Positions 20,201-42,487 of a stretch of DNA of 64,000 nucleotides are shown piece by piece. The DNA is taken from positions 1-64,000 of the forward strand of contig JANQRZ010000008.1 in the NCBI GenBank assembly GCA_028284265.1, given 5' to 3'. The notes beneath the pieces were generated by a model. It was not told the origin of the DNA. It did not search any database and worked only from the letters and a program-made list of their open reading frames with translations. Both the position numbers and the translations under genes were made by a program. The DNA comes from Rhodothermales bacterium. Lineage in GTDB: Bacteria > Bacteroidota > Rhodothermia > Rhodothermales > JANQRZ01. How positions within the stretch are numbered: position 1 is the first letter of the stretch; each line of letters begins with the position of its first letter.

Positions 20201-20274
<74 letters not shown>

Positions 20275-20310
20275 CACCGCCCGCAAGGGTAGACGCAAGC
20301 AGGTTGGATT

Positions 20311-20383: not shown

Positions 20384-20445
20384 CCCTCGAAGGCCCAGGC
20401 GGCGCTCCGCGCTTCTTGGGCCTTTCTATTTGGCTCCGACCGCGT

Positions 20446-22053
20446 ATGTCCAGCCTATCCGCCCAAGCGCTCATCCGCCAGACGGTCTTGGCCGAACTCG
20501 GCCTGCGCGTCATCAGCGCAGACAGCATCGGCACACTGGCTGGCTATGTGGCCCATGCCGTCGCGGATGCCATTGGAGCGGCGGTAGTCGGCGTGTTCGA
20601 GTGGGAGCGCGAGGCCCTCGTGCTACGCGCCGGCGCCGGATGGCCGGACGAGTTGTATGGGCGTGCCGTGCTAGGCGTTGCGGACCAGCACATCGAGACG
20701 GTGCTCGGTACGAGTGAGCCGGTATCGATCCACGACGAGGTCCCCGAGGCGTTGGCCGCCGTGGGTATTGCCTCCGGCCTTACGGTCCGTCTTGGCGGAG
20801 CGGGCGAACCGGCGGGTGCACTCGGGGCCTACGCCTTCGAGGATCGGGTGCTCGATGACGGTGTGGCGACGTTTATGGGGGCGGTTGCTGCCTTGCTGGC
20901 AGGAGGGATCGAGCGGGTGCATATGGAGCAAGCCTTGCGGGAAAGCGAAGCCCGTGCGCTCGCTGTGCTCCGAACGACCGTAGACGGCGTCATCACGATT
21001 GACGAGAGGGGGCAGATCGAGTCGTTCAACTTGGCGGCGGAGCGCATCTTTGGCTATACCGCTGCCGAGGTTGTGGGGCAGAACGTCCACATCCTCATGC
21101 CCGACCCCTACCACGCCGAACACGATGGGTATATCCAGGCCTATCACGAGACGGGGCGGCGCAAAATCATCGGCATCGGGCGCGAGGTCGTGGGGCGGCG
21201 CAAGGACGGCTCGACCTTTCCGCTCGACCTCGCCGTGAGCGAAGTCCGCCTCGCCAATCGCACCATCTTTACAGGTTTCGTCCGCGACATTTCCGAGCGA
21301 CGGACGCTGGAGCACGAGGTACTCCGTGTCGCCGAAGACGAGCGGCGGCGGATCGGGCACGACCTCCATGACGGGCTGGGGCAGATGCTCACCGGGACGG
21401 CTCTCATTGCGCGCGGTCTGGCCCGAAAGATCGAGCGGAACGAAGTGCCCGAGGTCGAGGAAGCCGAGGAGGTTGTACATCTGATCAAGGAGGCCGACGC
21501 GCATGCCCGCCGCCTTGCACGCGGTCTGGCACCCGTAGAACTGAACCAAGGAGGACTCGCTGCTGCGCTCGAACGCCTCGCTGCGAACGCGGAGCCGCTC
21601 TTCGGCATCCGGTGCACGGTCGAGGTGCTGGGCGAAGGAACGGCTTCCCTGCCTGACGCCGTCCCGATGCATCTCTTCCGCATCGCGCAGGAAGCCCTCT
21701 CCAACGCCGTGCGGCACGGCCAAGCGGAGCGCGTCGCCATCACGCTCGCGCACGGTTCGGACCGGCTGCGGCTCCGGGTACAAGACGATGGACGAGGCTT
21801 CCCCGATGTACTTCGCACGGGCGGTGCTGAAACCCTCGCTACTCACCTGGATGCAGGAGAGGACCTCAGCGCGCCTACGTCCGGGCGACCGGAAGACAAT
21901 CGGGGCATGGGCATCCGCATCATGCACTACCGTGCCCGCGTCATCGGCGGGCGGCTCGAAATTCGTCCGGGCACCGAACGCGGCACGGTCGTAACCTGTA
22001 CGCTACCGCTTTCGCACCGTGCCTCTGACGACCTAGAAACATCACGGCTATGA
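20446..22053 (+). CDS. GAF-PAS sensor histidine kinase with FixL-like heme-PAS signature (HisKA_3 type)
   Basis: The 535-residue protein has an N-terminal GAF-like domain (about 10-155), a PAS domain (about 170-285), a HisKA_3 dimerisation domain with the phosphoacceptor in HDLHDGLGQ (His308), and an HATPase domain with DDGRGF and GMGIRIMHYR. The PAS segment matches the oxygen sensor FixL at the heme pocket: EHDGYI with His226 where FixL has its proximal heme ligand, and IIGIGR with Arg246 where FixL has the O2-contacting Arg. There is no membrane helix. ATG 20446 was preferred over the open 5' part, which overlaps the tRNA. The following LuxR regulator overlaps by four bases. Heme binding is inferred, not shown. 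Confidence 0.88.
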   Translation: MSSLSAQALIRQTVLAELGLRVISADSIGTLAGYVAHAVADAIGAAVVGVFEWEREALVLRAGAGWPDELYGRAVLGVADQHIETVLGTSEPVSIHDEVPEALAAVGIASGLTVRLGGAGEPAGALGAYAFEDRVLDDGVATFMGAVAALLAGGIERVHMEQALRESEARALAVLRTTVDGVITIDERGQIESFNLAAERIFGYTAAEVVGQNVHILMPDPYHAEHDGYIQAYHETGRRKIIGIGREVVGRRKDGSTFPLDLAVSEVRLANRTIFTGFVRDISERRTLEHEVLRVAEDERRRIGHDLHDGLGQMLTGTALIARGLARKIERNEVPEVEEAEEVVHLIKEADAHARRLARGLAPVELNQGGLAAALERLAANAEPLFGIRCTVEVLGEGTASLPDAVPMHLFRIAQEALSNAVRHGQAERVAITLAHGSDRLRLRVQDDGRGFPDVLRTGGAETLATHLDAGEDLSAPTSGRPEDNRGMGIRIMHYRARVIGGRLEIRPGTERGTVVTCTLPLSHRASDDLETSRL

Positions 22054-22703
22054 CCACGCGCATCCTACTCGTCGACGACCACCCGCTGATGCGAAAGGGT
22101 CTCGCCCTTACGCTCGACGCCGAAGCTGACCTTGAGGTGGTGGGTCAGGCGTCCGATGCTGAGGAAGCCCTCGGCGTCTTTGACGACCTCGCGCCCGACC
22201 TCGTACTCGTGGATGTATCACTCCCCGGCATGAACGGGATCGAACTCGTCAAGCATCTCATCGTGCGCGACGAAGAAGTTAAGGTGCTCGTCGTCTCGCG
22301 CCACGACGAGTCGCTCTACGCCGAGCGGGCCGTCCGTGCGGGGGCGAAGGGCTACGTCTCGAAGCTCGAAGCCGACGAGGCGATTGTGAAGGCGGTGCGC
22401 TATGTGCTCCGGGGTGGGATCTATCTCTCGGAGGAACTCAAAGACAAGCTGCTCTTCGGGGCCGCGGTCGGACGGAAGGACGCGATGCAGTCTCCTCTGG
22501 AGGTGCTCTCGGACCGCGAATTGGAGGTCTTCGAGATGACGGGACGCGGACTGCCGACGAAGGAAATCGCCGAGCGGCTGCACCTCTCGGTCAAGACGGT
22601 CGAGAGCTACCGGGCGCGGATCAAGACGAAGCTAGGCCTGGAGAGTGGAACCGAGTTGATGCAGCACGCCGTCCGCTGGGTCGAGGGCGAAGGGGCTGGC
22701 TAA
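22050..22703 (+). CDS. NarL/FixJ (LuxR-type) response regulator
   Basis: A 217-residue regulator: receiver (about 1-120) with VDDHPL, acceptor Asp in LVDVSLPGMNG and Lys in YVSKLE; and a LuxR-type helix-turn-helix (about 145-210) with LSDRELEVFEMTGRGLPTKEIAERL and LSVKTVESYRARI. It overlaps the sensor kinase gene by four bases and is its cognate partner. Being placed upstream of the YceI, stress-protein and cbb3 oxidase genes, it is a candidate activator of those genes when oxygen is low. Confidence 0.93.
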   Translation: MTTRILLVDDHPLMRKGLALTLDAEADLEVVGQASDAEEALGVFDDLAPDLVLVDVSLPGMNGIELVKHLIVRDEEVKVLVVSRHDESLYAERAVRAGAKGYVSKLEADEAIVKAVRYVLRGGIYLSEELKDKLLFGAAVGRKDAMQSPLEVLSDRELEVFEMTGRGLPTKEIAERLHLSVKTVESYRARIKTKLGLESGTELMQHAVRWVEGEGAG

Positions 22704-22869
22704 AACCCGCCGGAAGCGTGTAGAGTAATTCCCTAGTGTTGGCGTAGGGGAGAACCGGCAAACCATTTCCAGCCATGCTGACACCCTCAGCAGGGTTAGG
22801 CCGTCAGTGGTGAGGTGCCGGAACGGGGACTTTAGGGCGGTTCATTTGTCACCCGCCTGCCCCCCGCCC

Positions 22870-25556: not shown

Positions 25557-26462
25557 ATGCAGCATCTCCTCGTTGCCCGTGACTTCTCTCCGTGTTCTGA
25601 GCGTGCCCTTGCGGTAGGCCTTGATCTCGCCGCTCGTACCGACGCTACGCTTCACCTCGTCCACGCCGAGGTGCTACACGGCGACCCCTACGGGAAGCCC
25701 GCCAACCCGGCTGGAACACTCGATAAGCTCCGCGAACGGTTGAAGGAGGGCGTAGAGCGCGACCGCGATCCCACTGCTCGGTACAACCCCGAAAGCGTGG
25801 CGGTCGAGCACGCGGTTGTCCGCGATGTGGCGGCGGCTCCGGCACTCCTACGCTACGCGGAGGAGCATGACGTTGACCTCGTCGTTCTTGGGACGCACGG
25901 ACGGCGGGGGCTGCGCCGGGCCGTACTCGGGAGCGTGGCCGAAGAGGTGGCCCGCCTCGCCCCGTGCTCCGTCCTCGCTGTGCGTGCAGGTGATGAGGCG
26001 TTCGCGCCGGACACCGTGCTCGTCGCGGTGGACTTCTCCGACGGGAGCCGGGCGGCGCTCCACCATGCCGCGCGTTTTGCCGAGGTCTACGGCGCACGCC
26101 TTGCGATACTTCACGTCATCGAAGAGATTTCGGTCCCGGAGTTTTACGACCTCGGGCTGGTCAGCGTCTATACCTATGGACCCGAGTTCGACGAGCGTGC
26201 CCTCCGTCACCTTCGTGTGTTCGCGGAAGAGGCGCTTGGCGAAGATGTCGCACGCAGCGCGAGCTACTATGTCAAAGTCGGCTCGCCAGCAGGGACGGTA
26301 GTGGATATGACGGAGAAGGTGGAGGCCGACCTCGTAGTGGTTGGGACGCGGGGGCTGTCCGGTGTTCGTCGCCTGCTGCTTGGGAGTGTGGCCGAGCGCG
26401 TGCTGCGTCTGGCCCCAGTCCCCGTTTTCGTCGCTCGGTCAGGTAGTATGGAAGAGCGGTAG
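25557..26462 (+). CDS. universal stress protein, two Usp domains
   Basis: The 301-residue protein contains two Usp domains. Both carry the ATP-binding pattern G-2x-G-9x-G-S: GTHGRRG with ALGS-type turn (VVLGTHGRRGLRRAVLGSVA) in the first and GTRGLSGVRRLLLGSVAERV in the second. Cytosolic; associated with growth arrest and low oxygen. Upstream 195 bases (25362-25556) hold no gene. Confidence 0.93.
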   Translation: MQHLLVARDFSPCSERALAVGLDLAARTDATLHLVHAEVLHGDPYGKPANPAGTLDKLRERLKEGVERDRDPTARYNPESVAVEHAVVRDVAAAPALLRYAEEHDVDLVVLGTHGRRGLRRAVLGSVAEEVARLAPCSVLAVRAGDEAFAPDTVLVAVDFSDGSRAALHHAARFAEVYGARLAILHVIEEISVPEFYDLGLVSVYTYGPEFDERALRHLRVFAEEALGEDVARSASYYVKVGSPAGTVVDMTEKVEADLVVVGTRGLSGVRRLLLGSVAERVLRLAPVPVFVARSGSMEER

Positions 26463-26562: not shown

Positions 26563-27036
26563 ATGCGCCCCCGCTTCGAGGTCGTCGCTCCGCATCCGCC
26601 GGAGGAGGTGGCGCGGCGGTTACGGGAAGCGCTTGCTCTGCCCGAGACGCTGTGGCGAGGCGATGTGTACGGCGCGCACTCTGTGTTCTATGTCCCACTC
26701 AGCGAGGAGCACGTCTGGTCTCCGTTCCTGTCGCTTGACTTGCAGTGGCAGGGGGAGGGCACCCTGGTCCGGGGGCGCTTCGGCCCCAAGCCCTCGATCT
26801 GGACGCTGTTCGTCGCGGCGTATGCCGTGTGCGGGTGCCTCGCCTTTTTTGCGCTTGCCTTCGGCTGGTCGCAATGGTGGATTGGTCAACCGGCGTGGGC
26901 GCTGGCGATGTTGCCCGTTACCCTAGTGGGGGCACTCGTCGTGTATGGCTTGGCGCGCTACGGGCAGCGGCGGGGGCAGGAGCAGATGGAGGCGCTCCGC
27001 CGCTTCCTAGAGGAGACGGTCGACGTTCGGGTGTAG
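26563..27036 (+). CDS. small membrane protein, unknown function
   Basis: This 157-residue protein has a hydrophilic N-terminus (about residues 1-85, with EVVAPHPPEEVARRL) and two hydrophobic helices near 88-110 and 113-135, then a charged tail. No motif is recognised. The upstream part of the open frame overlaps the stress-protein gene and is not coding in this frame, so ATG 26563 is used. It sits between the Usp gene and ccoN. Confidence 0.65.
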   Translation: MRPRFEVVAPHPPEEVARRLREALALPETLWRGDVYGAHSVFYVPLSEEHVWSPFLSLDLQWQGEGTLVRGRFGPKPSIWTLFVAAYAVCGCLAFFALAFGWSQWWIGQPAWALAMLPVTLVGALVVYGLARYGQRRGQEQMEALRRFLEETVDVRV

Positions 27037-27153
27037 GGGCGATCCCCACACTGTGCAGCAGGTGTGCCCGACGGGGAGGTTGGGCCGGGTCTGTCGTCGC
27101 CATCGCAAGCAGGGTTGGACCTTGGGAGACGTTCCTCACCCGCTCTTCTCCTG

Positions 27154-28656
27154 ATGGCTGAACTCACGACCACTGCCCAAGCCGGCGCGCTCGCCCGTCC
27201 CACGCTTGAGGTCTTCCGCTACGACGACCGCATCGTCCGCCACTTCACGCTTGCGACGATCCTATGGGGCTTCGTCGGGATGCTCGTCGGCGTCATCATC
27301 GCGCTCCAGCTTCCGTTCCCCGAAGCCAACCTCGGGCCGTACCTCTCGTTCGGTCGGCTTCGTCCCCTCCACACGAACGCTGTCATCTTCGCCTTCGCGG
27401 GCAACGCCATCTTCGCGGCGATCTACTACTCGACGCAGCGGCTCTGCAAGGCGCGGATGTTCTCCGACTGGATGAGCCGGTTCCACTTCTGGGGCTGGCA
27501 GGGCATCATCGTGGCCGCCGCCATCACGCTCCCGCTCGGGCTGACGACCTCGAAGGAATATGCCGAACTAGAGTGGCCCATCGACATCGCGATCACGGTC
27601 GTGTGGGTTGTCTTCGCGGTGAACTTCTTCGGGACGCTCTACAAGCGGCGCGAGCAACACATGTACGTCGCGCTCTGGTTCTACATCGCCACGATTGTCA
27701 CGGTGGCGGTGCTGCACCTCGGCAACTCGATGGCGGTCCCGGCGAGCTGGTTCAACAGCTACCCGATCTACCGGGGCGTGCAGGACGCGCTCGTGCAGTG
27801 GTGGTACGGCCACAACGCCGTCGCCTTCTTCCTCACGACGCCGTTCCTCGGCCTGATGTACTACTTCCTCCCGAAGGCCGCCGAGCGTCCGGTGTTCTCC
27901 TACCGCCTGTCGATCATCCACTTCTGGAGCTTGGTCTTCATCTACATCTGGGCCGGGCCGCACCACCTCAACTATACCGCGGTGCCCGAGTGGGCCGCGA
28001 CGCTCGGGATGGTCTTCAGCGTGATGCTCTGGATGCCGAGCTGGGGCGGCATGATCAACGGCCTGTTCACGCTGCGCGGCGCGTGGCACAAGCTGCGCGA
28101 CTCGGTTGTGCTCAAGATGTTCGTCGTCGGGATCACGTTCTACGGGATGTCGACGTTCGAAGGCCCGATGCTGTCGGTCAAGACGGTCAACGCGCTCTCT
28201 CACTACACCGATTGGAACATCGCCCACGTTCACTCGGGCGCGCTCGGGTGGAACGGGTTCATGACGTTCGGGATGATCTACTGGCTCGTGCCGCGCCTCT
28301 GGAAACGCGAGCTGTGGTCGCAGAAGATGGCGAACGCCCACTTCTGGATCGGGACCATCGGGATTCTGCTCTATGTCCTCGCGATGTACACCTCGGGTAT
28401 CACGCAGGGCCTGATGTGGCGCGCCTTCGACGACACAGGCCGCCTGCTCTATCCGGACTTCATGGAGACGGTCATCCAGATCAAGCCGATGTACTGGGTC
28501 CGGCTGATCGGTGGGACGATGTACCTCGGTGGGGTGGTGCTGCTGATGGTCAACGTATGGCAGACGATCCGCCGTGCGCCGAAGGATCTTCCCGACCCGG
28601 CAGTCGCTGTTCCCGCCGCTTCATCCACGTCCGCCAAAGACATCCCTGTCGCCTAA
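27154..28656 (+). CDS. ccoN: cbb3-type cytochrome c oxidase subunit I
   Basis: The 500-residue protein is the catalytic membrane subunit of the high-affinity terminal oxidase. The metal-ligand histidines fit: GHNAVAFFLTTPFLG with His in the Cu-B region, AGPHHLNYTAVPEW (His-His pair), and the late NIAHVHSGALGWNGFM pair for hemes b and b3. About 12 membrane helices. Low-spin heme ligand region is near LRPLHTNAVIFAF. It reduces O2 in the inner membrane. ATG 27154 gives MAELTTTAQAG, just ahead of the conserved start. First of four overlapping or adjacent oxidase genes. Confidence 0.95.
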   Translation: MAELTTTAQAGALARPTLEVFRYDDRIVRHFTLATILWGFVGMLVGVIIALQLPFPEANLGPYLSFGRLRPLHTNAVIFAFAGNAIFAAIYYSTQRLCKARMFSDWMSRFHFWGWQGIIVAAAITLPLGLTTSKEYAELEWPIDIAITVVWVVFAVNFFGTLYKRREQHMYVALWFYIATIVTVAVLHLGNSMAVPASWFNSYPIYRGVQDALVQWWYGHNAVAFFLTTPFLGLMYYFLPKAAERPVFSYRLSIIHFWSLVFIYIWAGPHHLNYTAVPEWAATLGMVFSVMLWMPSWGGMINGLFTLRGAWHKLRDSVVLKMFVVGITFYGMSTFEGPMLSVKTVNALSHYTDWNIAHVHSGALGWNGFMTFGMIYWLVPRLWKRELWSQKMANAHFWIGTIGILLYVLAMYTSGITQGLMWRAFDDTGRLLYPDFMETVIQIKPMYWVRLIGGTMYLGGVVLLMVNVWQTIRRAPKDLPDPAVAVPAASSTSAKDIPVA

Positions 28657-28674
28657 CCCTGCCCCGCGATTCCC

Positions 28675-29388
28675 ATGTTCAACCGACTCATCAAAGCGAA
28701 CGGGCGGCACCGCAGGCTCGAAGGCTGGCCGTTCATCTTCACCGCCCTCACCGCGCTCGCCATCCTCACCGGGACCATCATCGAGTTTGCCCCGCTCTTT
28801 CTCGTGGACGACAGCATGACGGCACCCGAAGGTGCAACGCCGTGGACTCCGCTCGAAGTCGCCGGACGCGATCTCTACATCCGCGAAGGGTGTAACAACT
28901 GCCACAGCCAGATGGTGCGGCCCTTCCGCCACGAGCTAGAGCGCTACGGCAACTTCTCGACCGCCGCCGAGACGGCATTCGAGAGTCCGCACCTGTGGGG
29001 ATCGAAGCGGACCGGCCCAGACCTCGCCCGGCTCGGCGGGAAGTACCCCCACCTCTGGCATGTCCGCCACATGGAGGACCCGCGCTCGACCTCGCCCGGC
29101 TCGATCATGCCGGACTACCCGTGGATGCTGACGGCGCGGATGGACTACGAGTACCTGCCCTCGGTGATGAGTGCGCTCCGCACGGTCGGTCTGCCGTACT
29201 CCGACGCCGAGGTGGAAAACGCCCCAGCGCTCGCCCGCGCGCAGGCCGAGCAGATCGCCGCCGAGATCGTTGAGCAGGGCGGGCCGGAGGGCCTCGCCAA
29301 CAAGGAAATCACGGCGCTCGTCGCCTTCCTCCAGCGGCTTGGTGTCCAGCACAGCGAGCCACTCACCGCAGCCCCCGACCAGCCATGA
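28675..29388 (+). CDS. ccoO: cbb3-type cytochrome c oxidase subunit II
   Basis: A 237-residue protein with one N-terminal membrane helix (about 18-45) and a periplasmic c-type cytochrome domain. The heme site is CNNCHS (EGCNNCHSQMVRPF), and a distal Met is available in GSIMPDYPWML, typical of CcoO. It passes electrons from CcoP or cytochrome c to CcoN. It is 18 bases after ccoN and overlaps the next gene by four. Confidence 0.95.
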   Translation: MFNRLIKANGRHRRLEGWPFIFTALTALAILTGTIIEFAPLFLVDDSMTAPEGATPWTPLEVAGRDLYIREGCNNCHSQMVRPFRHELERYGNFSTAAETAFESPHLWGSKRTGPDLARLGGKYPHLWHVRHMEDPRSTSPGSIMPDYPWMLTARMDYEYLPSVMSALRTVGLPYSDAEVENAPALARAQAEQIAAEIVEQGGPEGLANKEITALVAFLQRLGVQHSEPLTAAPDQP

Positions 29389-29585
29389 TGAAAGACGCCG
29401 TCCGCGCCCTCGAAACGGGAGCCTTCGCCGAGATCGGCGTCCTCGCCTTTTTCGTGGCCTTCCTGCTCATCGTCGTCTACGCCCTTACGCTCTCGAAGCG
29501 CAGCCGCGACGCGGCCAAGCAGATCCCGCTCGACGACCTCCCCGACGCTTTCCCTTCCCACACGACCAACGGCAACCCCGCATGA
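29385..29585 (+). CDS. ccoQ: small cbb3 oxidase subunit CcoQ-like
   Basis: This 66-residue protein has one membrane helix (about residues 15-36) and a short charged C-terminus, the size and place of CcoQ between ccoO and ccoP. It overlaps ccoO by four bases and ccoP by four. CcoQ stabilises the oxidase complex but is poorly conserved in sequence, so the call rests mainly on position. Confidence 0.75.
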   Translation: MMKDAVRALETGAFAEIGVLAFFVAFLLIVVYALTLSKRSRDAAKQIPLDDLPDAFPSHTTNGNPA

Positions 29586-30229
29586 GCGACGCCGCACCCA
29601 TCCCCGATCCCGAGTCCCCGCTCCGCGACGCTACGGACTCCACACCGCTCGTCGGCGATGCGAGCGATCTTATCATCCGCGGCCATAAGTACGATGGTAT
29701 CCGCGAGTACGACAACCCGATGCCGGGCTGGTGGACGATGTTGTTCCTCGCTTGTGTCGCGTTCGCGCCGCTCTACGTCGTTGGCGTCCACGTCTTCGAC
29801 TGGATCGATGACTACGGCGAGGACCTCGCCGAAGCGCAGGCCGACCTCGCCCAGATTCGAGAGGTCTATGCTTCGACCGGACCATCGTTCAAGACCGACC
29901 CCGGCGCGCTCGCTGAGTACGCCGCCGATGCCGCGTTCGTGGAGGCTGGAGTGGAGCCCTACCAAGCCGTCTGCGCGGCGTGCCACGGCGACGCTGGGCA
30001 AGGTCTCATCGGCCCCAACCTGACGGACGATTACTGGATTCACGGCGCGACGCCGACGGACGTGTACCGCGCCATCAACGAGGGCTTCCCGGCGCAGGGG
30101 ATGCCTGCTTGGGGCAACCAACTCACACCCGAAGAGCAGGCGCAGGCGATGGCCTTCGTGCTCTCACTGCGCGGCACTGACCCGCCCAACCAGAAGGAGC
30201 CACAGGGCGAACGCGTCACTGGCTCCTGA
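29582..30229 (+). CDS. ccoP: cbb3-type cytochrome c oxidase subunit III (one-heme form)
   Basis: The 215-residue protein has an N-terminal CcoP region (YDGIREYDNPMPGWW), one membrane helix (about residues 45-70), and a single c-type cytochrome domain with CAACHG and a Met ligand in GMPAWG. The classical CcoP has two heme-binding sites; only one CxxCH is seen here. It is shorter than the usual ~300 residues. Start ATG 29582 was chosen because it overlaps ccoQ and the upstream frame is not coding. Confidence 0.9.
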   Translation: MSDAAPIPDPESPLRDATDSTPLVGDASDLIIRGHKYDGIREYDNPMPGWWTMLFLACVAFAPLYVVGVHVFDWIDDYGEDLAEAQADLAQIREVYASTGPSFKTDPGALAEYAADAAFVEAGVEPYQAVCAACHGDAGQGLIGPNLTDDYWIHGATPTDVYRAINEGFPAQGMPAWGNQLTPEEQAQAMAFVLSLRGTDPPNQKEPQGERVTGS

Positions 30230-30249
30230 CCGCTCCCGCCTGACCGCGT

Positions 30250-31698
30250 ATGGCCTCGAACTTCGTCCCGGCCTCCGACCTCGACATCCTCGAATCGCCA
30301 GAGGAGATCCTCTCGACGCTCACTCGCGACGGCAAGCGGCGCTGGCTCTACCCGACGCCGGAGAAGGGGCGGTTCTGGCACCAACGACGCATCCTGGGCT
30401 GGGCACTCATTGCGCTCTTTGTTGCCCTGCCCATCGTTCGTATCAACGGGAAACCCGCCGTCTTCCTCGATGTGGTGCAGCGCGAGTTTACATTCTTTGG
30501 CTTCACCTTCTACCCGACCGACACCTTCCTGCTGCTCCTCTTCGGGATCGCCGCGCTGACGAGTATCGCGCTCCTGACGGCGCTGCTCGGGCGCGTGTGG
30601 TGCGGATGGGGTTGCCCGCAGACGGTCTACCTAGAGTTCGTCTTTCGACCCATCGAGCGACTGATCGAAGGAAAGGAACACGTCCGCAAGCGTCGGAACG
30701 AAGGGCCGTGGAGTTTCGATAAGGCCTGGCGGAAAGCCCTCAAGTGGGGCGTCTACGCCGTGTTTTCCATTGCCGTCGCGCACGTCTTTGTGAGCTACAT
30801 CGTCGGGTGGGAATCGCTTCTCGATTGGATGACGGGGTCGCCGTTCGAGCACTGGGGGTTCTTCGTGCTGATGGCCGGGACCAGCGCGCTCGCGCTTTTC
30901 GACTTCGGGTTCTTCCGCGAGCAGATGTGTACCATCGTCTGCCCCTACGCCCGCTTCCAGAGCGTGCTGCTGGATGAGGATTCGATGATCGTCTCCTACG
31001 ACCCGAACCGGGGGGAGCCTCGGTCGAAGCGGTCGAAGAAGACCATTGAGCAGGAGGAGGCAGGGCTGATGCCTTCGAAGGGCGACTGCATCGACTGCTT
31101 CGCTTGCGTCCGCACCTGCCCGACGGGCATCGACATCCGCGACGGGTTGCAGATGGAGTGCATCGCCTGCACGCAGTGCATCGATGCGTGCGACACCATC
31201 ATGGACCGGATCGGCAAGCCGCGTGGGCTGATCCGCTACACGAGTGAGCACGCGCTCGAAGACCAACCGACCCGCATCGCCCGTCCGCGCACAGTGCTCT
31301 ACAGTGTGCTGCTCCTCGCCGTGACCGTGATGTTCACCGTTGCCCTGACGACTCGCGGGGCTTACGATGTCGAAGTCGGGCGCGTGACCGGTATGCCCTT
31401 TACGGAATTGCCGGATGGCCAGATCGCCAACCGGGTTCGCTTCCGGGTTCAGAACCAGACGACACAGCCAACGGCCTTCTCTGTCGAGGTCATCGCGCCG
31501 GAGGGGGCGAGCCTGCGCGTCGGTGGTCGTCAGCCCATCCAGGTCGCACCGCGTGACCTAGGGCGCGTCGAAGCGTTCGTCGTCGTGCCGCGCACTGCGT
31601 TCAGCAATGCAGCGCAGCAGGAGGCACAGTTTCGCGTCGTCTTCGAGGATGGCCACGAGGAGACCCTGACTTTTCCCTTGCTCGGACCTAGCCGCTAG
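30250..31698 (+). CDS. ccoG: cytochrome c oxidase accessory protein CcoG (RdxA/FixG)
   Basis: The 482-residue membrane protein has several helices, the RVWCGWGCPQTVYLE motif, a CIVCPYARFQS stretch, and ferredoxin-like 4Fe-4S clusters in CIDCFACVRTCPTG and CIACTQCIDACD. A C-terminal immunoglobulin-like domain follows (about 380-480). CcoG helps assemble the cbb3 oxidase, probably handling copper. It lies 20 bases after ccoP in the same direction and so belongs to the oxidase operon. Confidence 0.95.
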   Translation: MASNFVPASDLDILESPEEILSTLTRDGKRRWLYPTPEKGRFWHQRRILGWALIALFVALPIVRINGKPAVFLDVVQREFTFFGFTFYPTDTFLLLLFGIAALTSIALLTALLGRVWCGWGCPQTVYLEFVFRPIERLIEGKEHVRKRRNEGPWSFDKAWRKALKWGVYAVFSIAVAHVFVSYIVGWESLLDWMTGSPFEHWGFFVLMAGTSALALFDFGFFREQMCTIVCPYARFQSVLLDEDSMIVSYDPNRGEPRSKRSKKTIEQEEAGLMPSKGDCIDCFACVRTCPTGIDIRDGLQMECIACTQCIDACDTIMDRIGKPRGLIRYTSEHALEDQPTRIARPRTVLYSVLLLAVTVMFTVALTTRGAYDVEVGRVTGMPFTELPDGQIANRVRFRVQNQTTQPTAFSVEVIAPEGASLRVGGRQPIQVAPRDLGRVEAFVVVPRTAFSNAAQQEAQFRVVFEDGHEETLTFPLLGPSR

Positions 31699-31706
31699 CC
31701 GCTCCC

Positions 31707-32615
31707 ATGACATCTTCTCCTGACTTTGCCCACCTCGTCTGCGCGCTCGACTTCTCGGAAGGCTCCGAAGCTGCGCTCATCCGCGCCGCTGACCTCGCCG
31801 AGCGGTTCCACGCCCGCCTCCACCTCTTCCACACAGAGGCGACCTTTCGAGCGAGCAGGGGAGGTGAGCACCAAGCCGACCAGGCGAAGGACCAATCGCT
31901 GGTTCGGCTCTACGAGTTCGCGGAGGAGGTACTCGGCGGGACCGATGTCCTCGATGTCCTCGGCCCCGAGTTCGTGGTCCGCCACGGGGAGTACGCTGCC
32001 GATGCGGTCGTCCGCTATGCCACCGAAGTAGAAGCAGGCCTCGTCGTGCTTGGTACTCACGGGCGAAGGGGCTACCAGCGCCTCGCACTAGGGAGTGTGG
32101 CCGAGTCGGTTGTCCGCCACGCGCCGTGCCCGGTCCTGACGGTACCGAACGAGGCCGCACGCACCGCGCCGAGTCCTTCGCGGCCCGTGCTCGTCGCCGT
32201 CGATTTCTCGGCGCACAGCCGAGCGGCGCTCCAACTCGGCGAGCAGTTCGCGGCGCTCTTCGACGCACCCATAGAGGCGATCCATGTTGCTGAGGACCTC
32301 GGCCTCGTGCCGGAGTTCTACACCGATGCTGGGATGGTCGTCGCGCACAACATCCCGGAGCTGGCTGACAAAGCCGAGGCTCATCTGCAGCAACTGGTAG
32401 ACGAAGAAGGCGGCACGGCTCGGCCGCATGTTCGGTTTGGGCGTCCTCACCATGAGATCGTCGCGCGCGCCGAGGAGGTTCGTGCCGGGCTTGTCGTCAT
32501 GGCGACGCATGGGCTGACAGGCGTGAAGCACGCGCTCCTCGGGAGTGTCACCGAGCGCGCACTTCGGCGGTCTCACTGTCCGGTGTTATCGGTTCGCGCC
32601 AGAGGAGGTCGCTAG
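31707..32615 (+). CDS. universal stress protein, two Usp domains
   Basis: The 302-residue protein has two Usp domains; the first ends with VVLGTHGRRGYQRLALGSVAESV and the second with VMATHGLTGVKHALLGSVTERA. It is similar in arrangement to the Usp at 25557-26462 and begins eight bases after the ccoG stop. Cytosolic. Placement directly in the oxidase operon suggests expression together with the low-oxygen genes. Confidence 0.93.
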   Translation: MTSSPDFAHLVCALDFSEGSEAALIRAADLAERFHARLHLFHTEATFRASRGGEHQADQAKDQSLVRLYEFAEEVLGGTDVLDVLGPEFVVRHGEYAADAVVRYATEVEAGLVVLGTHGRRGYQRLALGSVAESVVRHAPCPVLTVPNEAARTAPSPSRPVLVAVDFSAHSRAALQLGEQFAALFDAPIEAIHVAEDLGLVPEFYTDAGMVVAHNIPELADKAEAHLQQLVDEEGGTARPHVRFGRPHHEIVARAEEVRAGLVVMATHGLTGVKHALLGSVTERALRRSHCPVLSVRARGGR

Positions 32616-32616
32616 C

Positions 32617-34182
32617 ATGCAAACGCCCGAGCTTGTTCACTATTCGACAGAACCGTGGCCCGCTGCCGAGTCGTCGGAGGAGAGAGCGGTCTTCTCCCGA
32701 CTTCAAGCGGGATTCCGCGACCAATTTGAACAGGTCTTTCCCGACCCGCTCGCTCCGCGAACCGTCGTCGTGGTGCCCAGTCTTTCGCTGCCCGTTGATG
32801 AGCTACGCAAGATCAGTGGGGTGCATCACTACGAAGAGCGGATGCTCTTTACGCTGATGCTCTTGCGGATGCCGCATACGCGCTTGGTCTTCGTTACGAG
32901 CCAGCCCGTAGCGCCGGGCATCATCGACTACTACCTGCACCTTCTGCCCGGCATTCCCAGCGTTCATGCCCGCGAACGACTCTGTCTCCTTGCCTGCCAC
33001 GATGCCTCCGAGGTGCCGCTGACGCAGAAGGTCTTGGACCGCCCGCGCCTCATCCAGCGCATCCGTCGCGCCATCGGCGATCCGGCATCGGCTCATCTGA
33101 CGTGCTTCAACGCGACCGCTTTGGAGCGCACCCTCGCCGTTCGGCTCGGCATTTCCCTCTACGCCTGCGACCCTGCGCTTGGCCACCTCGGTACCAAAAG
33201 CGGAAGCCGGAAAGCATTCCGAGAAGCAGGAATCCTACTTCCTGACGGAGCCGAGGACCTGCGCGATATGGACGATGCAGCCGCCGCCTTGGCTGCACTG
33301 AAGGGCAGACAAGCCGGTCTACGTAAGGCTGTCGTCAAGCTAGATGAGGGCTTCAGTGGCGAGGGCAATGCCGTTTTCTCATTCGAGGGAGCACCCGAAG
33401 GGGCGGGGCTGGAGGCGTGGGTGCGCGGCGCATTGCCTGAGCGCCTTCGGTACGAGGCAGCTACTGAAACATGGGACCACTTCGCAGCGAGTTACGCCGA
33501 GATGGGTGGGATCGTCGAGGCATGGGTGGATGGAGAGATGAAGACGTCTCCTTCAGTACAGTGCCGCGTGGACCCGGCAGGGCGGCCTGCGGTGATCTCG
33601 ACACACGACCAACTCCTCGGGGGGCCATCCGGCCAAGTGTTCCTCGGCTGCACCTTTCCTGCTGACGGGGTGTACCGCCGAGCGATTCACGAAGCCGGGC
33701 AGCGCGTCGCGGGTGTACTCGCTGAGAAAGGCGTGCTGGGACGTTTCGGGATCGACTTTGTCTCCGTGCGGTCGGGCAGCGAGTGGCAGCACTATGCCAT
33801 CGAGATCAACCTTCGCAAAGGGGGGACGACGCACCCCTACGACATGCTGGAGTTTCTGACCGATGGGGCCTATGATGAAGGGAGTGGCCTCTACAGAACG
33901 CCGAGCGGACAGGCACTCTACTATTTCGCTTCAGACAACCTCGTCAGCGAGCGGTACCACGGCTTGACGCCACGCGACCTCGTGGACATCGCTGTGGAAC
34001 GGCATCTTCACTTCCACGGGGGAACCCATGAAGGGGTCGTGTTTCATCTCATCGGGGCGCTCTCGCAGTTCGGAAAGCTGGGGGTGCTCTGCATCGCCGC
34101 GAGTCCGAACCGGGCGCGGACGCTCTACGAGGAGACCGTCGTTGCCCTCAACGTCGCCAGCGACGAGACCCGTGTCCTCTAG
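32617..34182 (+). CDS. ATP-grasp peptide-ligase-like protein (PGM1-related)
   Basis: The 521-residue protein has an N-terminal alpha/beta domain (about 50-185: VVVPSLSLPVDELRKISGVHHYEERMLF) and a C-terminal ATP-grasp region: KLDEGFSGEGN (241-251) fits the glycine-rich nucleotide loop, and EINLRKGGTTHPY (396-408) fits the metal-binding Glu/Asn block. This resembles the PGM1 family, named for a Streptomyces peptide ligase. The reaction expected is ATP-dependent amide bond formation; the substrate is unknown. It starts one base after the upstream Usp stop and 26 bases before the next Usp, so it is within a stress/oxidase operon. ATG 32617 is used; the 5' frame overlaps the Usp. Confidence 0.7.
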   Translation: MQTPELVHYSTEPWPAAESSEERAVFSRLQAGFRDQFEQVFPDPLAPRTVVVVPSLSLPVDELRKISGVHHYEERMLFTLMLLRMPHTRLVFVTSQPVAPGIIDYYLHLLPGIPSVHARERLCLLACHDASEVPLTQKVLDRPRLIQRIRRAIGDPASAHLTCFNATALERTLAVRLGISLYACDPALGHLGTKSGSRKAFREAGILLPDGAEDLRDMDDAAAALAALKGRQAGLRKAVVKLDEGFSGEGNAVFSFEGAPEGAGLEAWVRGALPERLRYEAATETWDHFAASYAEMGGIVEAWVDGEMKTSPSVQCRVDPAGRPAVISTHDQLLGGPSGQVFLGCTFPADGVYRRAIHEAGQRVAGVLAEKGVLGRFGIDFVSVRSGSEWQHYAIEINLRKGGTTHPYDMLEFLTDGAYDEGSGLYRTPSGQALYYFASDNLVSERYHGLTPRDLVDIAVERHLHFHGGTHEGVVFHLIGALSQFGKLGVLCIAASPNRARTLYEETVVALNVASDETRVL

Positions 34183-34208
34183 CCTCCTCAGCCACTGACG
34201 GTTCTGCT

Positions 34209-35162
34209 ATGCTTGCCCCGAATCGCATCCTCGTCCCGCTCGACTTTTCCGGTGCCTCTGACGCCGCGCTCCGTCGCGCTGCCGATCTGGCTGCCCGCAC
34301 CGGTGCTGCCCTACATGTGCTGCACGTTGTGGCGGGCTTCGAGATGACCGGTGCCGAGATGCCCGATGCGGACCGGGCCTTCTACCAGCGCGTTTGGGAC
34401 CGGGCCGAGGCCAAGCTCAACAACTACCTTCAGCGCGCTGGCCTGTCTGGGACCGGGTTAGAGTACGTGCTCGCACACGGCGCTCCGTCGCAGGCAATCC
34501 TCGCCTACGCGGAGGCGCACGACATCGGGTTGATCGTGATGGGGACGCACGGGCGTACAGGGCTACAGCGCTTTTTCCTCGGCAGCGTTGCCCATGAGGT
34601 GCTACGCCGCGCCGAGATGCCCGTGATGGTGGTGCCAATGGCGGATGCTCCGCTGAAACCGCTCCGCCGCGTCGTGGCACCAACCGATTTTTCCGATGCG
34701 TCGCGTATGGTACTTCCCGTCGCCGCCAGCCTCGCCGCGCTGTACGGTGCCGACCTCGACCTGCTTCATGTCCTCGAACCGGTCCGCTACCTTGAGGCCA
34801 TCGCGGGAACCACGATTACCGCCGACCTTACGCCGGGTCTCCGGGAACGGGCTGAACGCAAGGTGCAAGAGTTCGTGGCTGATCCAGACCTCGCGCGGAT
34901 GCTGGCTGGGAGAGACCAAGCCGAGGACCTGAAGCCTGTGGAAGGGGGAGCCGGTCTAGCGCGCATCAGGTCGCACGTCGCTGAAGGGCGCGCAGCCGAA
35001 ACCATCGCCGAAGCCGCTCGGGAGTGGCACGCCGACGCCATCGTGATGGCGAAGCGAGGCTTGCATGGCGTGGAGCGTTTCCTGCTGGGGAGCGTGACCT
35101 CGCGGGTGTGCCACCTCGCTCCGTGTGCGGTCCTGGTCGTTCCCTTCGGTTTTTCTGCGTAG
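34209..35162 (+). CDS. universal stress protein, two Usp domains
   Basis: The 317-residue protein carries two Usp domains with nucleotide-binding patterns VMGTHGRTGLQRFFLGSVAHEV and VMAKRGLHGVERFLLGSVTSRV. The second copy has lost the first Gly of the pattern (AKRG in place of GxxG), so it may not bind ATP. It ends the run of Usp/ATP-grasp genes before a hairpin. Confidence 0.92.
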   Translation: MLAPNRILVPLDFSGASDAALRRAADLAARTGAALHVLHVVAGFEMTGAEMPDADRAFYQRVWDRAEAKLNNYLQRAGLSGTGLEYVLAHGAPSQAILAYAEAHDIGLIVMGTHGRTGLQRFFLGSVAHEVLRRAEMPVMVVPMADAPLKPLRRVVAPTDFSDASRMVLPVAASLAALYGADLDLLHVLEPVRYLEAIAGTTITADLTPGLRERAERKVQEFVADPDLARMLAGRDQAEDLKPVEGGAGLARIRSHVAEGRAAETIAEAAREWHADAIVMAKRGLHGVERFLLGSVTSRVCHLAPCAVLVVPFGFSA

Positions 35163-35194: not shown

Positions 35195-35213
35195 TGTAGG
35201 GGGCACCCCTACA
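35195..35213 (+). terminator. perfect 8-bp hairpin between Usp and the ccoI unit
   Basis: TGTAGGGG and CCCCTACA flank the three-base loop GCA, about 33 bases past the Usp stop. No T-tract follows, so it may be a weak terminator or a protein-binding palindrome. The remaining 35214-35313 stretch shows no gene and may contain the promoter for the small membrane protein and ccoI. Confidence 0.45.
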
Positions 35214-35313: not shown

Positions 35314-35526
35314 GTGGATACTCTCTCTAGCAACGGGCATTCGGGAGGACGTGTTGGGCCGGGGCAGGCCGAGCAGCGTCCCTCGCTGGTACCTCCTCAC
35401 ATCGCGTGGCCACTCTTTATCGTGCTTCTGCTCGCGATGAGCGTCGGAGCCGCACTGTTCACAGCCTACATGGCCGTATCGGACGGTGGGGTCGAACTCG
35501 TAGAAGACGCGCCGTTTACGCACTGA
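35314..35526 (+). CDS. small single-helix membrane protein ahead of ccoI (FixH/CcoH position)
   Basis: The 70-residue protein starts with GTG and has one membrane helix (about residues 30-52: WPLFIVLLLAMSVGAALFTAY). It ends one base inside the start of ccoI (TGATG). In many genomes ccoH/fixH precedes ccoI, but this protein is much shorter than the usual 150 residues and the sequence shows no clear match. I call it only by position. Confidence 0.6.
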   Translation: MDTLSSNGHSGGRVGPGQAEQRPSLVPPHIAWPLFIVLLLAMSVGAALFTAYMAVSDGGVELVEDAPFTH

Positions 35527-38045
35527 TGCCCGCCATCGTCCCCGATATCGCCCCGGTTCTGGTGACCGCCGAATCGCCGTGCGCTCATTGCAGCCTGCCG
35601 GTTGGCTCGCAGCCGGTGCGTCGGGGCGAGGCTGCGTTCTGCTGCACGGGCTGCGCGGTCGTCTACGAGGCCCTCGGCGCTGCCGGGTTTGGCGAGACCT
35701 ACTATCGCCTCCGCGAACTCCCAACGGAGCGTGAGGCCACGCGGCCCGTCGCGCCGGACGCCCTGCAGGTCCGTGAGCTTGACACGCCTGAGTTTCTCGA
35801 TACCCACACCCGGCGCACTGCCGATGACCAGCGCGTGGGCGAACTATTCGTAGACGGCGTGCATTGTGCGGCGTGTGTGTGGCTCGTTGAGCAGCTACCC
35901 TACCACGTTGAGGGCGTGATCCAAGCCCGCCTCGATCTGCCTCGGGCGCGGCTTCGGCTCACCTTTGACGATGGGGTTCGGCTGTCCGCTGTCGCCGACT
36001 GGCTGGCGCGGTTCGGGTATGCGCTCCGACCTGCCCGCACCGAAGCGCTCGGGCAGCGCACCGACGCCGAGCGGCGGCTCCTCGTCCGGCTCGGCGTGGC
36101 GTGGGCGCTCGCCGGGAACGTGATGCTCCTCGCCTTCGCGCTCTACGCGGGCCTCGACCGCACCGGCGGCGACGGCCTAGCGACGGCAGCGCGCTGGATC
36201 AGCCTCGCCCTTGCCGTCCCCGCTGTCACCTACGGCGCGGCTCCGTTCTTTCGGCGGGCCTCGGCATCGCTTCGGGCAGCGTGGGGCGTCCGCGACCTCC
36301 GTCGCCTCCACATGGACACGCCCATCGCCCTCGGTATTGCCATCGGGTTCGGTCACAGCGCATGGGCGACGATCACCGGACAGGGCGAGGTGTGGTTCGA
36401 CTCGATCACGGTGCTCATCGCGGCGCTGCTGACGGCGCGGTGGCTTCAGCTTCGCAGCCGCCGCCTCGCAGGCGAGGCCTCAGAACGTCTCCTCGCGCTC
36501 GTGCCGACGATAACCCGCCGCGTCTGCTCCGATGGGACGGTCGAGGCCGTTCGTGTCGATAGGCTCAGGCGGGGTGATCTGGTGATGGTACCCGCAGGCG
36601 AGGTGGTGCCGGTGGACGGGACCGTGACTGGCGGGGCAAGCCGACTCAACAACGCGGTGCTGACGGGCGAGAGTCGCCCCGAGCCGGTTCGCCTCGGCGA
36701 TCGCGTTGAGGCTGGGGCGACAAACCTGAGTGCCCCACTGCGTCTCCGCGTTGAGCGCGTCGGCGAGGCGACCCGCGTGGGACAGCTTCTCGCGTGGGTC
36801 CGCGATGCCGAGGCGCGCTGCGCGCCTGCCGTGCTCTTGGCTGATCGGATCGGCGGAGTCTTCGTTCTTGCCGTTGTTGCCCTCGCCCTTGGCACCGCTC
36901 TACTGTGGAGCGTCCTCGACCCGGCGGCGATGCCGCACCACGTTGTCGCGCTGCTTGTCATCACCTGTCCGTGCGCGCTCGGGATGGCAACGCCGCTGGT
37001 GTTCACCGTGGCGGCAGGCCGTGCGGCTCGCGCCGGGCTGTTTGTCAAGAGCGACGAGGCCGTGCAGCGGCTCACCGAGGTCGATGCGGTAGTTCTCGAC
37101 AAGACGGGCACGCTCACTGAGGGACGGATGGTGCTGACGGCATTGGAGGGAGACCTCGGCCTGAGTCCAGAGCAACGTGAAGAAGCGCTCGGCATCGCCG
37201 CCGCGCTCGAAACCGAGAGCACGCATCCCATCGCCGAAGCCCTCGTCCGGGAACAGGGGAACGGTCGATATGGAGCTCCCACCGCGTTCGAGTCTGTCGA
37301 CGGGTGCGGCGTCCGGGGCGTCGTCGGTGGCCGCGAGGTTTGGGTGGGTCGCCCCGACTGGATTGCTGCCGAGGTGGGGCCACCTTCGCCGCCGCTTGCC
37401 GCCGCGTGGAGCAGCTACACCCGCCAAGGCCACACGCCTGTTGGCGTGGCCGTAGACGGTTGCTGGGCACTCGCCCTCGCTGTCGGGGACGCCCTCCGCG
37501 ACGATGCGCACGCGCTCGTTCAACAGTTGCAGGACGAGGGCAAGGGCGTCCACATTCTCTCTGGCGATCACCCCGTTACGGTCGCCACTGTCGCGGCCCA
37601 GCTAGGCATTGACCTGAAGCACGCTGTCGGCGGGGCCTCGCCCGAGGCGAAGCGCGAGGCGGTTACCGCTTTGCAGCAGGAAGGTCGCACCGTGCTGATG
37701 GTCGGCGACGGGGTCAATGACATCGCTGCGCTCCAATCGGCTGATGTGGGTGTGGCAGTGGGCGGTGGGAGCACCGCTGGCCTCGTCGCTGCCGACGTGT
37801 TTCTGACGCACCCCGGCCTTGCGCCCATCGCAGCGCTTCTCGACGGAGCGCACAGTGCGATGCGGACGGTGCGCGGCCTGCTCGCCTTCGCGCTCGCCTA
37901 TAACCTCGTCGGAGCCGGGGCTGCGGTCGCCGGTCTCGTGACGCCGCTCGTCGCGGCGGTGGCAATGCCGCTCTCATCGCTCACCGTGGTTGCGCTGGCG
38001 CTGCTCCAGCCCTCGTTCCGCCGCTCGCGTGGAGGATCGTCATGA
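35526..38045 (+). CDS. ccoI: heavy-metal P-type ATPase, copper type for cbb3 assembly (CcoI/FixI)
   Basis: The 839-residue protein has a Cys-rich N-terminus (CAHCSLPVG, CCTGCAVVYEALG), a heavy-metal-associated domain with GVHCAACVW, about eight membrane helices, a transmembrane CPC motif (ITCPCALGMATPL), the phosphorylation site DKTGTLTEG, an HP motif (ESTHPIAEAL) and MVGDGVNDIAAL. It pumps Cu+ outward across the inner membrane to supply the oxidase's Cu-B centre. It overlaps ccoS by four bases. Confidence 0.94.
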   Translation: MPAIVPDIAPVLVTAESPCAHCSLPVGSQPVRRGEAAFCCTGCAVVYEALGAAGFGETYYRLRELPTEREATRPVAPDALQVRELDTPEFLDTHTRRTADDQRVGELFVDGVHCAACVWLVEQLPYHVEGVIQARLDLPRARLRLTFDDGVRLSAVADWLARFGYALRPARTEALGQRTDAERRLLVRLGVAWALAGNVMLLAFALYAGLDRTGGDGLATAARWISLALAVPAVTYGAAPFFRRASASLRAAWGVRDLRRLHMDTPIALGIAIGFGHSAWATITGQGEVWFDSITVLIAALLTARWLQLRSRRLAGEASERLLALVPTITRRVCSDGTVEAVRVDRLRRGDLVMVPAGEVVPVDGTVTGGASRLNNAVLTGESRPEPVRLGDRVEAGATNLSAPLRLRVERVGEATRVGQLLAWVRDAEARCAPAVLLADRIGGVFVLAVVALALGTALLWSVLDPAAMPHHVVALLVITCPCALGMATPLVFTVAAGRAARAGLFVKSDEAVQRLTEVDAVVLDKTGTLTEGRMVLTALEGDLGLSPEQREEALGIAAALETESTHPIAEALVREQGNGRYGAPTAFESVDGCGVRGVVGGREVWVGRPDWIAAEVGPPSPPLAAAWSSYTRQGHTPVGVAVDGCWALALAVGDALRDDAHALVQQLQDEGKGVHILSGDHPVTVATVAAQLGIDLKHAVGGASPEAKREAVTALQQEGRTVLMVGDGVNDIAALQSADVGVAVGGGSTAGLVAADVFLTHPGLAPIAALLDGAHSAMRTVRGLLAFALAYNLVGAGAAVAGLVTPLVAAVAMPLSSLTVVALALLQPSFRRSRGGSS

Positions 38046-39781: not shown

Positions 39782-40351
39782 ATGGAACTGACTCAACCAT
39801 GGCCTTGGTACGTCGCCGGTCCTCTGATTGGCCTCGTCGTGCCCGCCCTCTTGCTCTTCGGCGGCAAGGTATTCGGCGTCTCGGCCAACCTCCGCCACGT
39901 CTGTGCCGCGCTGCCGGTCCCCGAAAGGCGAAAGCCTGGCTTCCTACGCTATGACTGGCGGCGCACGGGGCTATGGAATCTGGTCTTCGTAGCCGGAGTC
40001 GCTGTCGGCGGCTTCGTCGGCATTCGCCTTCTCTCAGACTCGAGCCTGCCGCTAGCGCTTTCGTCTGACACGTTCGCCGCGCTCGCCAGTGTTGGCGTTG
40101 AGGACGTGACCGGCTTCGTGCCGAGGGATCTCATTTCGTGGGGTGCGCTCGCTACGCCCATCGGGGCGCTCATGGTGATCGGCGGCGGGTTTCTCGTCGG
40201 CTTCGGCGCACGGTGGGCCGGAGGCTGCACGAGTGGGCACGCCATCTCCGGCCTCGCCGATCTGCAAGTGCCGTCGCTCGTCGCTGTCGTCGGCTTCTTC
40301 GTCGGTGGGCTGTTCGTGACGCACCTTCTCCTTCCGCTCCTTCTCTCGTAG
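39782..40351 (+). CDS. YeeE/YedE family sulfur transporter half (N-terminal half type)
   Basis: The 189-residue protein has about four or five helices and the motif FGARWAGGCTSGHAISG (about 142-158) with the Cys used by the TsuA/YeeE thiosulfate and sulfide-handling transporters. The second, complementary half is encoded two bases downstream. Together the two would form one inner-membrane permease for a reduced sulfur species. Confidence 0.9.
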   Translation: MELTQPWPWYVAGPLIGLVVPALLLFGGKVFGVSANLRHVCAALPVPERRKPGFLRYDWRRTGLWNLVFVAGVAVGGFVGIRLLSDSSLPLALSSDTFAALASVGVEDVTGFVPRDLISWGALATPIGALMVIGGGFLVGFGARWAGGCTSGHAISGLADLQVPSLVAVVGFFVGGLFVTHLLLPLLLS

Positions 40352-40353
40352 CC

Positions 40354-40899
40354 ATGTGCACCGACACGCCTCCGTACCAACAGGGCGATGGCCTCCCGGA
40401 CGACTGCATCGACACCGAGCAGGTCGCGTCCGATGTTCAGGACCGGGTGCTCGCCGAGGGCAGCGCGCCGCTCTCTCTCGCCATCTACGGACTGCTCGGC
40501 GTCGGTGTCGGGATCGTCTTCACCCAGAGTCAGGTCGTCTCGTGGTTCCGCATCTACGAGATGTTCCGGTTCGAGAGCTTCCACATGTACGGCATCATCG
40601 GAAGCGCCGTCGCCACAGCAGCCCTTTCGATCTGGCTCATTAAAAAGCTGAACCTCACGACCGTCCACGGCGAGCCGATCCAGCTTTCGCCCAAGGAGTG
40701 GGGCGACTCGCGCGTGCCCGGTGCGCGCTACTGGATGGGCGGGACGGTGTTCGGCCTCGGCTGGGCGCTCCTCGGGGCGTGTCCCGGACCGATCTTCGCG
40801 CTACTCGGCGGCGGCATCACGGTCATGGTGGCGGCGCTCGTCGCTGCGCTCGTCGGGACGTGGACCTACGCCGTGCTCCGCGACCGTCTGCCTCACTGA
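40354..40899 (+). CDS. YeeE/YedE family sulfur transporter half (C-terminal half, DUF6691-like)
   Basis: The 181-residue protein has a hydrophilic N-terminus of about 50 residues (MCTDTPPYQQGDGLPDD, including Cys2), then about four membrane helices and the motif LLGACPGPIFALLGGG (about 145-160) with the conserved Cys of the second YeeE half. It begins two bases after the first half. The extra N-terminal stretch is longer than I would expect for the family. Confidence 0.85.
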   Translation: MCTDTPPYQQGDGLPDDCIDTEQVASDVQDRVLAEGSAPLSLAIYGLLGVGVGIVFTQSQVVSWFRIYEMFRFESFHMYGIIGSAVATAALSIWLIKKLNLTTVHGEPIQLSPKEWGDSRVPGARYWMGGTVFGLGWALLGACPGPIFALLGGGITVMVAALVAALVGTWTYAVLRDRLPH

Positions 40900-40944
40900 G
40901 GTCGGCTTAATCTGTCACCACGCTTCACGTCAACCCTCGACATC

Positions 40945-42402: not shown

Positions 42403-42487
42403 TTTCCGAGCAGGGACAGGCGTTCACCACCGGCCCACCACCGAGCATCTGTCCCCGCTCACCCTTTCGCGCCTTCCCACTCCGGCC

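Follow-up and report, generated by a model that had tools for sequence, protein, structure and literature searches.

A BesA-like ATP-grasp ligase gene in a predicted FixLJ-type low-oxygen regulon of Rhodothermales

The stretch analysed here, hereafter the window, comprises the first 64,000 nucleotides of contig JANQRZ010000008.1 from a Rhodothermales bacterium (GCA_028284265.1) and contains a gene for an ATP-grasp ligase between two genes for universal stress proteins (Usp), directly behind a cbb3 oxidase operon. On the + strand throughout, ccoN, ccoO, ccoP and ccoG are followed by Usp, ligase and Usp; 8 bases separate the end of ccoG (31698) from the first Usp, one base lies between the stop of that gene (32615) and the ligase ATG (32617), and 26 bases lie between the ligase stop (34182) and the ATG of the next Usp (34209). 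A first-pass annotation, made by a model from the letters alone, had given the extent of the ligase gene, the gaps of one and 26 bases and the direction shared with the cco genes, all of which were confirmed from the sequence (Table 1). Both flanking Usp genes matched PF00582 above its curated cut-off (183 and 220 bits), in two stretches each. The annotation had also described a peptide-ligase-type enzyme outside any biosynthetic cluster, and the Pfam families and the neighbours, which are respiration, stress and transport genes, bear this out.

Table 1. Features of the ligase locus, in window coordinates
Feature	Position	Strand	Evidence
FixL-like oxygen-sensor histidine kinase (GAF, haem-PAS, HisKA_3, HATPase)	20446..22053	+	Pfam; PAS vs FixL 1d06 7e-36
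FixJ/NarL-type response regulator (receiver + LuxR helix-turn-helix)	22050..22703	+	PF00072 1.5e-27, PF00196 5e-17
Weak regulator-type palindrome upstream of YceI pair	22719..22737	.	score 12.9
Two YceI-domain genes	22807-23436, 23441-24055	+	PF04264 1.6e-15, 1.3e-7
Usp (tandem)	25557..26462	+	PF00582 6e-62
Regulator-type palindrome TGTAGGGGCGATCCCCACA, upstream of ccoN	27032..27050	.	motif scan
cbb3 oxidase genes ccoN-ccoO-ccoP-ccoG	27064..31698	+	Pfam
ccoN	27064-28656, probable true start near 27151	+	COX1 9e-124
ccoO	28675-29388	+	FixO 7.5e-82
ccoP	ends 30229	+	FixP_N 2e-14
ccoG	30250-31698	+	FixG_C 4e-17
Usp (tandem), 8 bp 3' of ccoG	31707..32615	+	PF00582 4e-54
BesA/PGM1-like ATP-grasp ligase, 521 aa	32617..34182	+	Pfam, structure model, homologue alignment
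Usp (tandem), 26 bp 3' of ligase	34209..35162	+	PF00582 2e-65
Perfect regulator-type palindrome TGTAGGGGGCACCCCTACA, upstream of P-type ATPase	35195..35213	.	motif scan
Copper-type P1B ATPase (FixI/CopA-like)	35406..38045	+	TIGR01525 5e-136, TIGR01511 8.5e-120, PF12156

Pfam assigned to the ligase an IQCH-like ATP-grasp domain (PF24923, 2e-22) and PGM1_C (PF18105, 2.5e-14), and a structure model from 47 homologues reached a predicted local distance difference test score (pLDDT) of 89 and a predicted template-modelling score (pTM) of 0.88. The PreATP-grasp plus PGM1_C layout and the ATP-grasp fold were both found by Pfam and the model, in agreement with the fold that the annotation had proposed and for which it had suggested structure prediction as a check. 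The best solved relative by sequence was BesA (PDB 8yi6, 3.8e-42), the L-propargylglycine-L-glutamate ligase of Streptomyces; the model aligned with it at Z 39.4 over 449 residues (30% identity, TM scores 0.78/0.88), a likeness of the whole-length fold, and the SPS, HDQ, FPAD and EINLRK motifs are common to the two proteins. Z was 30.7 for PGM1 (3wvq) and at most 22 for the generic ATP-grasp enzymes that came next. By sequence and by structure BesA is clearly nearer to the window ligase than PGM1, and the annotation's description of the gene as PGM1-related holds for the PGM1_C domain and the fold but not for the closest relative. The NCBIfam BesA model (NF042917) scores the protein at 175.6 bits against an equivalog cut-off of 750, and, unlike BesA, the window ligase belongs to a respiration cluster and has no propargylglycine genes nearby; judged from its sequence, it is a relative of BesA and not BesA itself. 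PGM1, the pheganomycin peptide ligase (3wvq, 3wvr), attaches an amino acid derivative to a peptide of ribosomal origin; it has the same PreATP-grasp and PGM1_C domains but 16-17% identity, and no natural-product cluster with a precursor peptide was found at the window locus. Residues K241, E301, R317, D380, E396, N398 and R400 align with BesA and are invariant in the 47 homologues, which come from several phyla; among them, the catalytic Lys, the Asp/Glu/Asn metal ligands and Arg are conserved as K241, D380, E396, N398 and R400. Because of these invariant residues and the BesA-type motifs an active ligase is the safe reading, and the protein is very probably an active ATP-grasp carboxylate-amine ligase of the BesA/PGM1 type. 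A search of the open-licence literature found no paper joining IQCH with ATP-grasp, none under the family name and nothing of use on BesA.

Upstream of the oxidase genes stands a FixL-like kinase gene, overlapped by 4 bp by the response-regulator gene. The PAS domain of the kinase matched FixL with the haem-pocket stretch HDGYIQAY...IIGIGR conserved, and the kinase carries a FixL-type haem-PAS domain that is predicted to bind haem. Its listed open reading frame starts at a TTG (20326) inside a tRNA-Thr gene (20311-20385), and the true start is for this reason probably the next in-frame ATG, at 20446; a tRNA-Pro gene (20201-20275) adjoins tRNA-Thr, an arrangement in which automatic annotation could mis-start the kinase. 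FixL-like kinases were found in 44/60 relatives and in 14 of the 16 ligase carriers, and in relatives they often lie near cbb3 and Usp genes.

Palindromes with the consensus TGTAGGG-N5-CCCTACA occur at the same locus. The copy before the P-type ATPase (TGTAGGGGGCACCCCTACA) is free of mismatches, and the near copy before ccoN (TGTAGGGGCGATCCCCACA) lies about 115 bp 5' of the probable ccoN start. Without mismatch, TAGGG-N5-CCCTA occurs once in the 3.69-Mb genome, at 35195-35213, and of 28 genome sites with at most one mismatch, three fall in the window cluster, against about 0.12 expected from its length. At two mismatches GTAGGG-N5-CCCTAC was not enriched genome-wide, a control pattern being more frequent, so that lone weak sites elsewhere in the genome are not trustworthy. 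The palindrome is similar to the published FixJ site TAAGTAATTTCCCTTA and to the motif GTAGTTTCCC from systematic evolution of ligands by exponential enrichment (SELEX) (PMC4999443).

Relatives were scanned with a matrix of nine sites taken upstream of Usp, oxidase, ATPase or kinase genes; none of these stands directly before a ligase gene, and one (L017, 4101-4119) heads a Usp-ligase operon. With a score of at least 10 counted as a site, 13 of 19 ligase upstream regions, spanning nine genera, carried one, in every case 110-170 bp 5' of the start, compared with a mean of 0.375 regions for 200 column-permuted control matrices, whose maximum never exceeded 10. In two further loci (L023, L024) a site heads the operon that contains the ligase. 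The L145 ligase stands behind a DHODH-like gene at a contig edge, the operon start lying beyond the visible sequence. The DNA flanking the sites is unrelated between families. A strong site before the YceI pair in G030 (L134) and a site before ccoN in G002 repeat the layout of the window. The palindrome is GC-rich and self-complementary and lies shortly 3' of a stop codon at 35195 and in L017, L018 and L033, as a transcription terminator hairpin might; however, no T-run lies 3' of it, the same sequence precedes divergently placed ligase genes (L019, L021, L027), ccoN and YceI, and the letters are conserved and not the pairing alone. On these grounds we rejected the hairpin explanation, which we regard as extremely improbable.

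Across the loci examined, the ligase has no constant neighbour. Usp genes on both sides were found in the window only, and cbb3 genes lie within about 10 kb of the ligase in only 3 of the 16 ligase-bearing genomes of the order (G000, that of the window; G059, with locus L017; G022, with L025). The first-pass annotation had suggested testing whether the Usp-ATP-grasp-Usp order recurs in other genomes, its absence in relatives being named as refuting, and whether it is always accompanied by ccoN/ccoG; neither was the case. In 6 of the 16 genomes (window, L017, L021, L022, L023, L025) the gene closest to the ligase on one side is nonetheless a Usp, against 0.12 expected by chance (about 50-fold, P about 1e-9, ignoring shared ancestry), and the adjacency of ligase and Usp is beyond chance. 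Outside the order, Usp is also nearest to the ligase in one Chloroflexota genome (L070), together with a NarL-type regulator, CBS, CtaA, SCO, PCuAC and COX1. Other ligase neighbours include a nitroreductase, a PAS kinase and a NarL-type regulator in L025, a DsbD-type cytochrome biogenesis gene in L023 and, in L024, a DHODH-like gene along with pyruvate:ferredoxin oxidoreductase; the varied neighbours (nitroreductase, pyruvate:ferredoxin oxidoreductase, CtaA/SCO/COX1, cbb3) also point to limited oxygen. In L024 (1763-8294) the oxidoreductase, the DHODH-like protein and the ligase form an apparent operon with a strong palindrome 184 bp upstream.

Full-length relatives of the ligase (~55-65% identity) occur in Rhodothermota, Chloroflexota, Acidobacteriota, Myxococcota, Actinomycetota, Bacteroidota and Pseudomonadota, and the gene is an accessory one that moves between lineages. 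The ligase of L029-L031 clusters with Bacteroidota relatives in the tree (support 100/99) and is therefore a separately acquired copy; it, too, has the palindromic site. The Chloroflexota ligase of L070 falls near those of L022 and L023, so that transfer, and not an independent origin, may explain its island. Full FixO is present in 13 of the 16 ligase carriers of the order, which leans toward a cbb3 link and is confounded by kinship; within Acetobacteraceae, the ligase gene was found in 1 of 299 genomes. Had the ligase merely landed in the oxidase operon by chance, without functional link, the uniqueness of the exact order to the window, the patchiness of the gene and its varying neighbours would be accounted for. 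Against such hitch-hiking, which we consider very improbable, the site precedes the ligase in most genomes of the order, even far from cbb3 genes, the copy of separate origin carries it as well, and Usp adjacency far exceeds chance. The association that the annotation had called the new part fails as a fixed gene order and survives as a control site shared across relatives, in which, and not in the adjacency, the novelty lies; the low-oxygen setting it had supposed is upheld by the FixL-type kinase, the cbb3 genes and this site, which reaches relatives without the adjacency.

We propose that a FixLJ-type low-oxygen regulon of Rhodothermales has taken in a BesA-like ligase and that this enzyme makes a small, probably gamma-glutamyl dipeptide, a reading to which we assign a probability of roughly 0.6. 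As oxygen falls, the haem-PAS kinase would phosphorylate the FixJ-type regulator, which would bind TGTAGGG-N5-CCCTACA and switch on the cbb3 oxidase, the Usp proteins, the copper ATPase and the ligase, the last being read from the ccoN promoter in the window and from its own site in relatives. At the expense of ATP, the ligase would then activate a glutamate-like amino acid at its carboxylate and couple this group to an amine on a second molecule, yielding the dipeptide. Judged by its sites and setting, the ligase is likely to be a member of a low-oxygen regulon; that its product is gamma-glutamyl we put at slightly short of even odds. The idea of a low-oxygen amide ligase stands up, an amide being the predicted product.

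Several observations weigh against this proposal. We infer the pairing of regulator and site, from their co-location and the likeness to the FixJ site, and also the direction of regulation. In the matrix scan, no site was found directly upstream of Usp-ligase-Usp in the window or upstream of the ligase outside the order, where its neighbours are varied, and the site before the L025 ligase is weak (7.3). The gene occurs in 20 of 114 genomes of the order, with FixL-like kinases in most, which would make the ligase an accessory member of the regulon. Independence among the compared genomes is incomplete, and inspection of these very loci by eye is how the motif was first recognised; for this reason L146 and L147, which were fetched after the matrix had been fixed and both have a site before the ligase, are the fairest single test. 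An identity of 30% to BesA is too low for transferring its substrate, and the adjacency of gamma-glutamyltranspeptidase described below is restricted to one family.

The regulon might instead respond to nitrate, nitric oxide (NO), redox state or general stress, and not to oxygen as such. Haem PAS domains are able to bind NO as well as CO, and Usp proteins respond to many stresses. NarL-family regulators such as NreC, moreover, also bind GC-rich palindromes (PMC5694512). We think such a signal improbable, since the kinase beside the regulator has a FixL haem-PAS domain and the site accompanies genes such as those for the high-affinity oxidase and, in L024, for pyruvate:ferredoxin oxidoreductase; on the same features, an oxygen response of the ligase regulon is what we infer. 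It is quite possible, on the other hand, that the ligase is a low-oxygen gene whose product is not gamma-glutamyl, the enzyme joining other amino acids or, like PGM1, modifying a protein, a peptide or a polymer end. The fold is common to the ligase, PGM1 and other Streptomyces peptide ligases, the identity to BesA is low, an AstE/AspA-type amidohydrolase is translationally coupled to the ligase in Rhizobiales, and a sugar transferase neighbours it in lake proteobacteria. Speaking for the gamma-glutamyl dipeptide are the greater closeness of BesA than of PGM1 and a gamma-glutamyltranspeptidase gene 3' of the ligase in L028, L145 and L146, which fits such a product; no small precursor-peptide gene was seen in the gaps of 1 and 26 bases beside the window ligase.

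The predicted system resembles FixLJ of Rhizobiales in its haem-PAS kinase, LuxR-type regulator, control of cbb3 and similar DNA site (PMC4999443), but the window kinase has a HisKA_3-type core and a GAF domain. The only known conserved target of FixJ is fixK (PMC4999443). Here, by contrast, sites immediately precede oxidase, Usp, YceI, ATPase and ligase genes. The mycobacterial dormancy regulon of DosR (DevR), a low-oxygen NarL-type regulator, contains several Usp genes, a nitroreductase and a P-type ATPase. It is thus alike in regulator type and in these members (compare the nitroreductase of L025), whereas here the haem sensor is a PAS and not a GAF domain, cbb3 and the ligase are members, and the DNA site differs. 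Ligases of the BesA/PGM1 group are known mainly from pathways for antibiotics and unusual amino acids; the recurrent link of one to an oxygen-sensing regulon would point to an unrecognised small molecule made under limited respiration, for which a concrete regulator, DNA site and enzyme are now available as candidates. The predicted FixLJ-like regulon of cbb3 oxidase, Usp, YceI, copper ATPase and ligase is of use in its own right for a poorly studied order, and no paper on it was found in the open-licence literature.

We also considered control by FNR/FixK-type boxes (consensus TTGANCNNGATCAANG, PMC4999443). A scan of the window with at most 2 mismatches gave 10 matches against 6.9 expected, no signal. 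Upstream of the ligase, exact TTGA-N6-TCAA was at first counted 10 times against 0.6 expected; the Microvirga boxes lie inside a divergent kinase gene and those of L030 and L031 inside the ligase gene itself, and they were discarded. After removal of coding hits, boxes were left in three Rhodopila genomes (TTGACCTGGATCAA) and one Caulobacteraceae genome (TTGACGCCAATCAA), and because the Rhodopila and Caulobacteraceae carriers form one clade in the tree, the box is a lead only. That diverse bacteria make a dedicated low-oxygen gamma-glutamyl-type dipeptide, a BesA-like ligase having come under oxygen-responsive control more than once (at least twice in Rhodothermales, through the FixJ-like site, and in Alphaproteobacteria through the FNR/FixK-type box), is a speculative extension that we think rather unlikely; if true, it would mean a low-oxygen metabolite without known counterpart.

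Further arrangements were seen around the ligase in relatives. In L017 (5150-10943) and L033 (1208-7059), a polyphosphate gene set (CHAD, Na/Pi cotransporter-PhoU, PPK2) lies 3' of the ligase, and the palindrome again precedes the gene after this set (a P-type ATPase in L017); a PPK2 gene lies upstream of the ligase in L062. CHAD is absent from the genome of the window, and a polyphosphate link was set aside as local only. PurT adjoins the ligase in Microvirga and was taken as unrelated. In Rhizobiales (L073, L083, L085, L088, L091, L093) the AstE/AspA-type amidohydrolase gene overlaps or abuts the 5' end of the ligase, and the two enzymes may possibly act on one small amide. The order sugar transferase, ligase, MopE-type metal-binding protein, FtsH is kept in L049, L055, L056, L067, L068, L072, L087 and L096, which come from Myxococcota bins and from lake and related proteobacteria. 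L054, L055, L076 and L102 belong to metagenome bins whose titles name Klebsiella pneumoniae or Bifidobacterium breve; they have a ligase and neighbours typical of the lake proteobacteria, and these organism names are probably wrong. In the window itself, a 421-aa open reading frame (24096-25361) between the YceI pair and the first Usp had no Pfam match at 0.001, and 3' of the P-type ATPase lie sulphur genes (39782-43363) encoding a Sulf_transp piece, a metallo-beta-lactamase/rhodanese protein and a TauE/SafE exporter.

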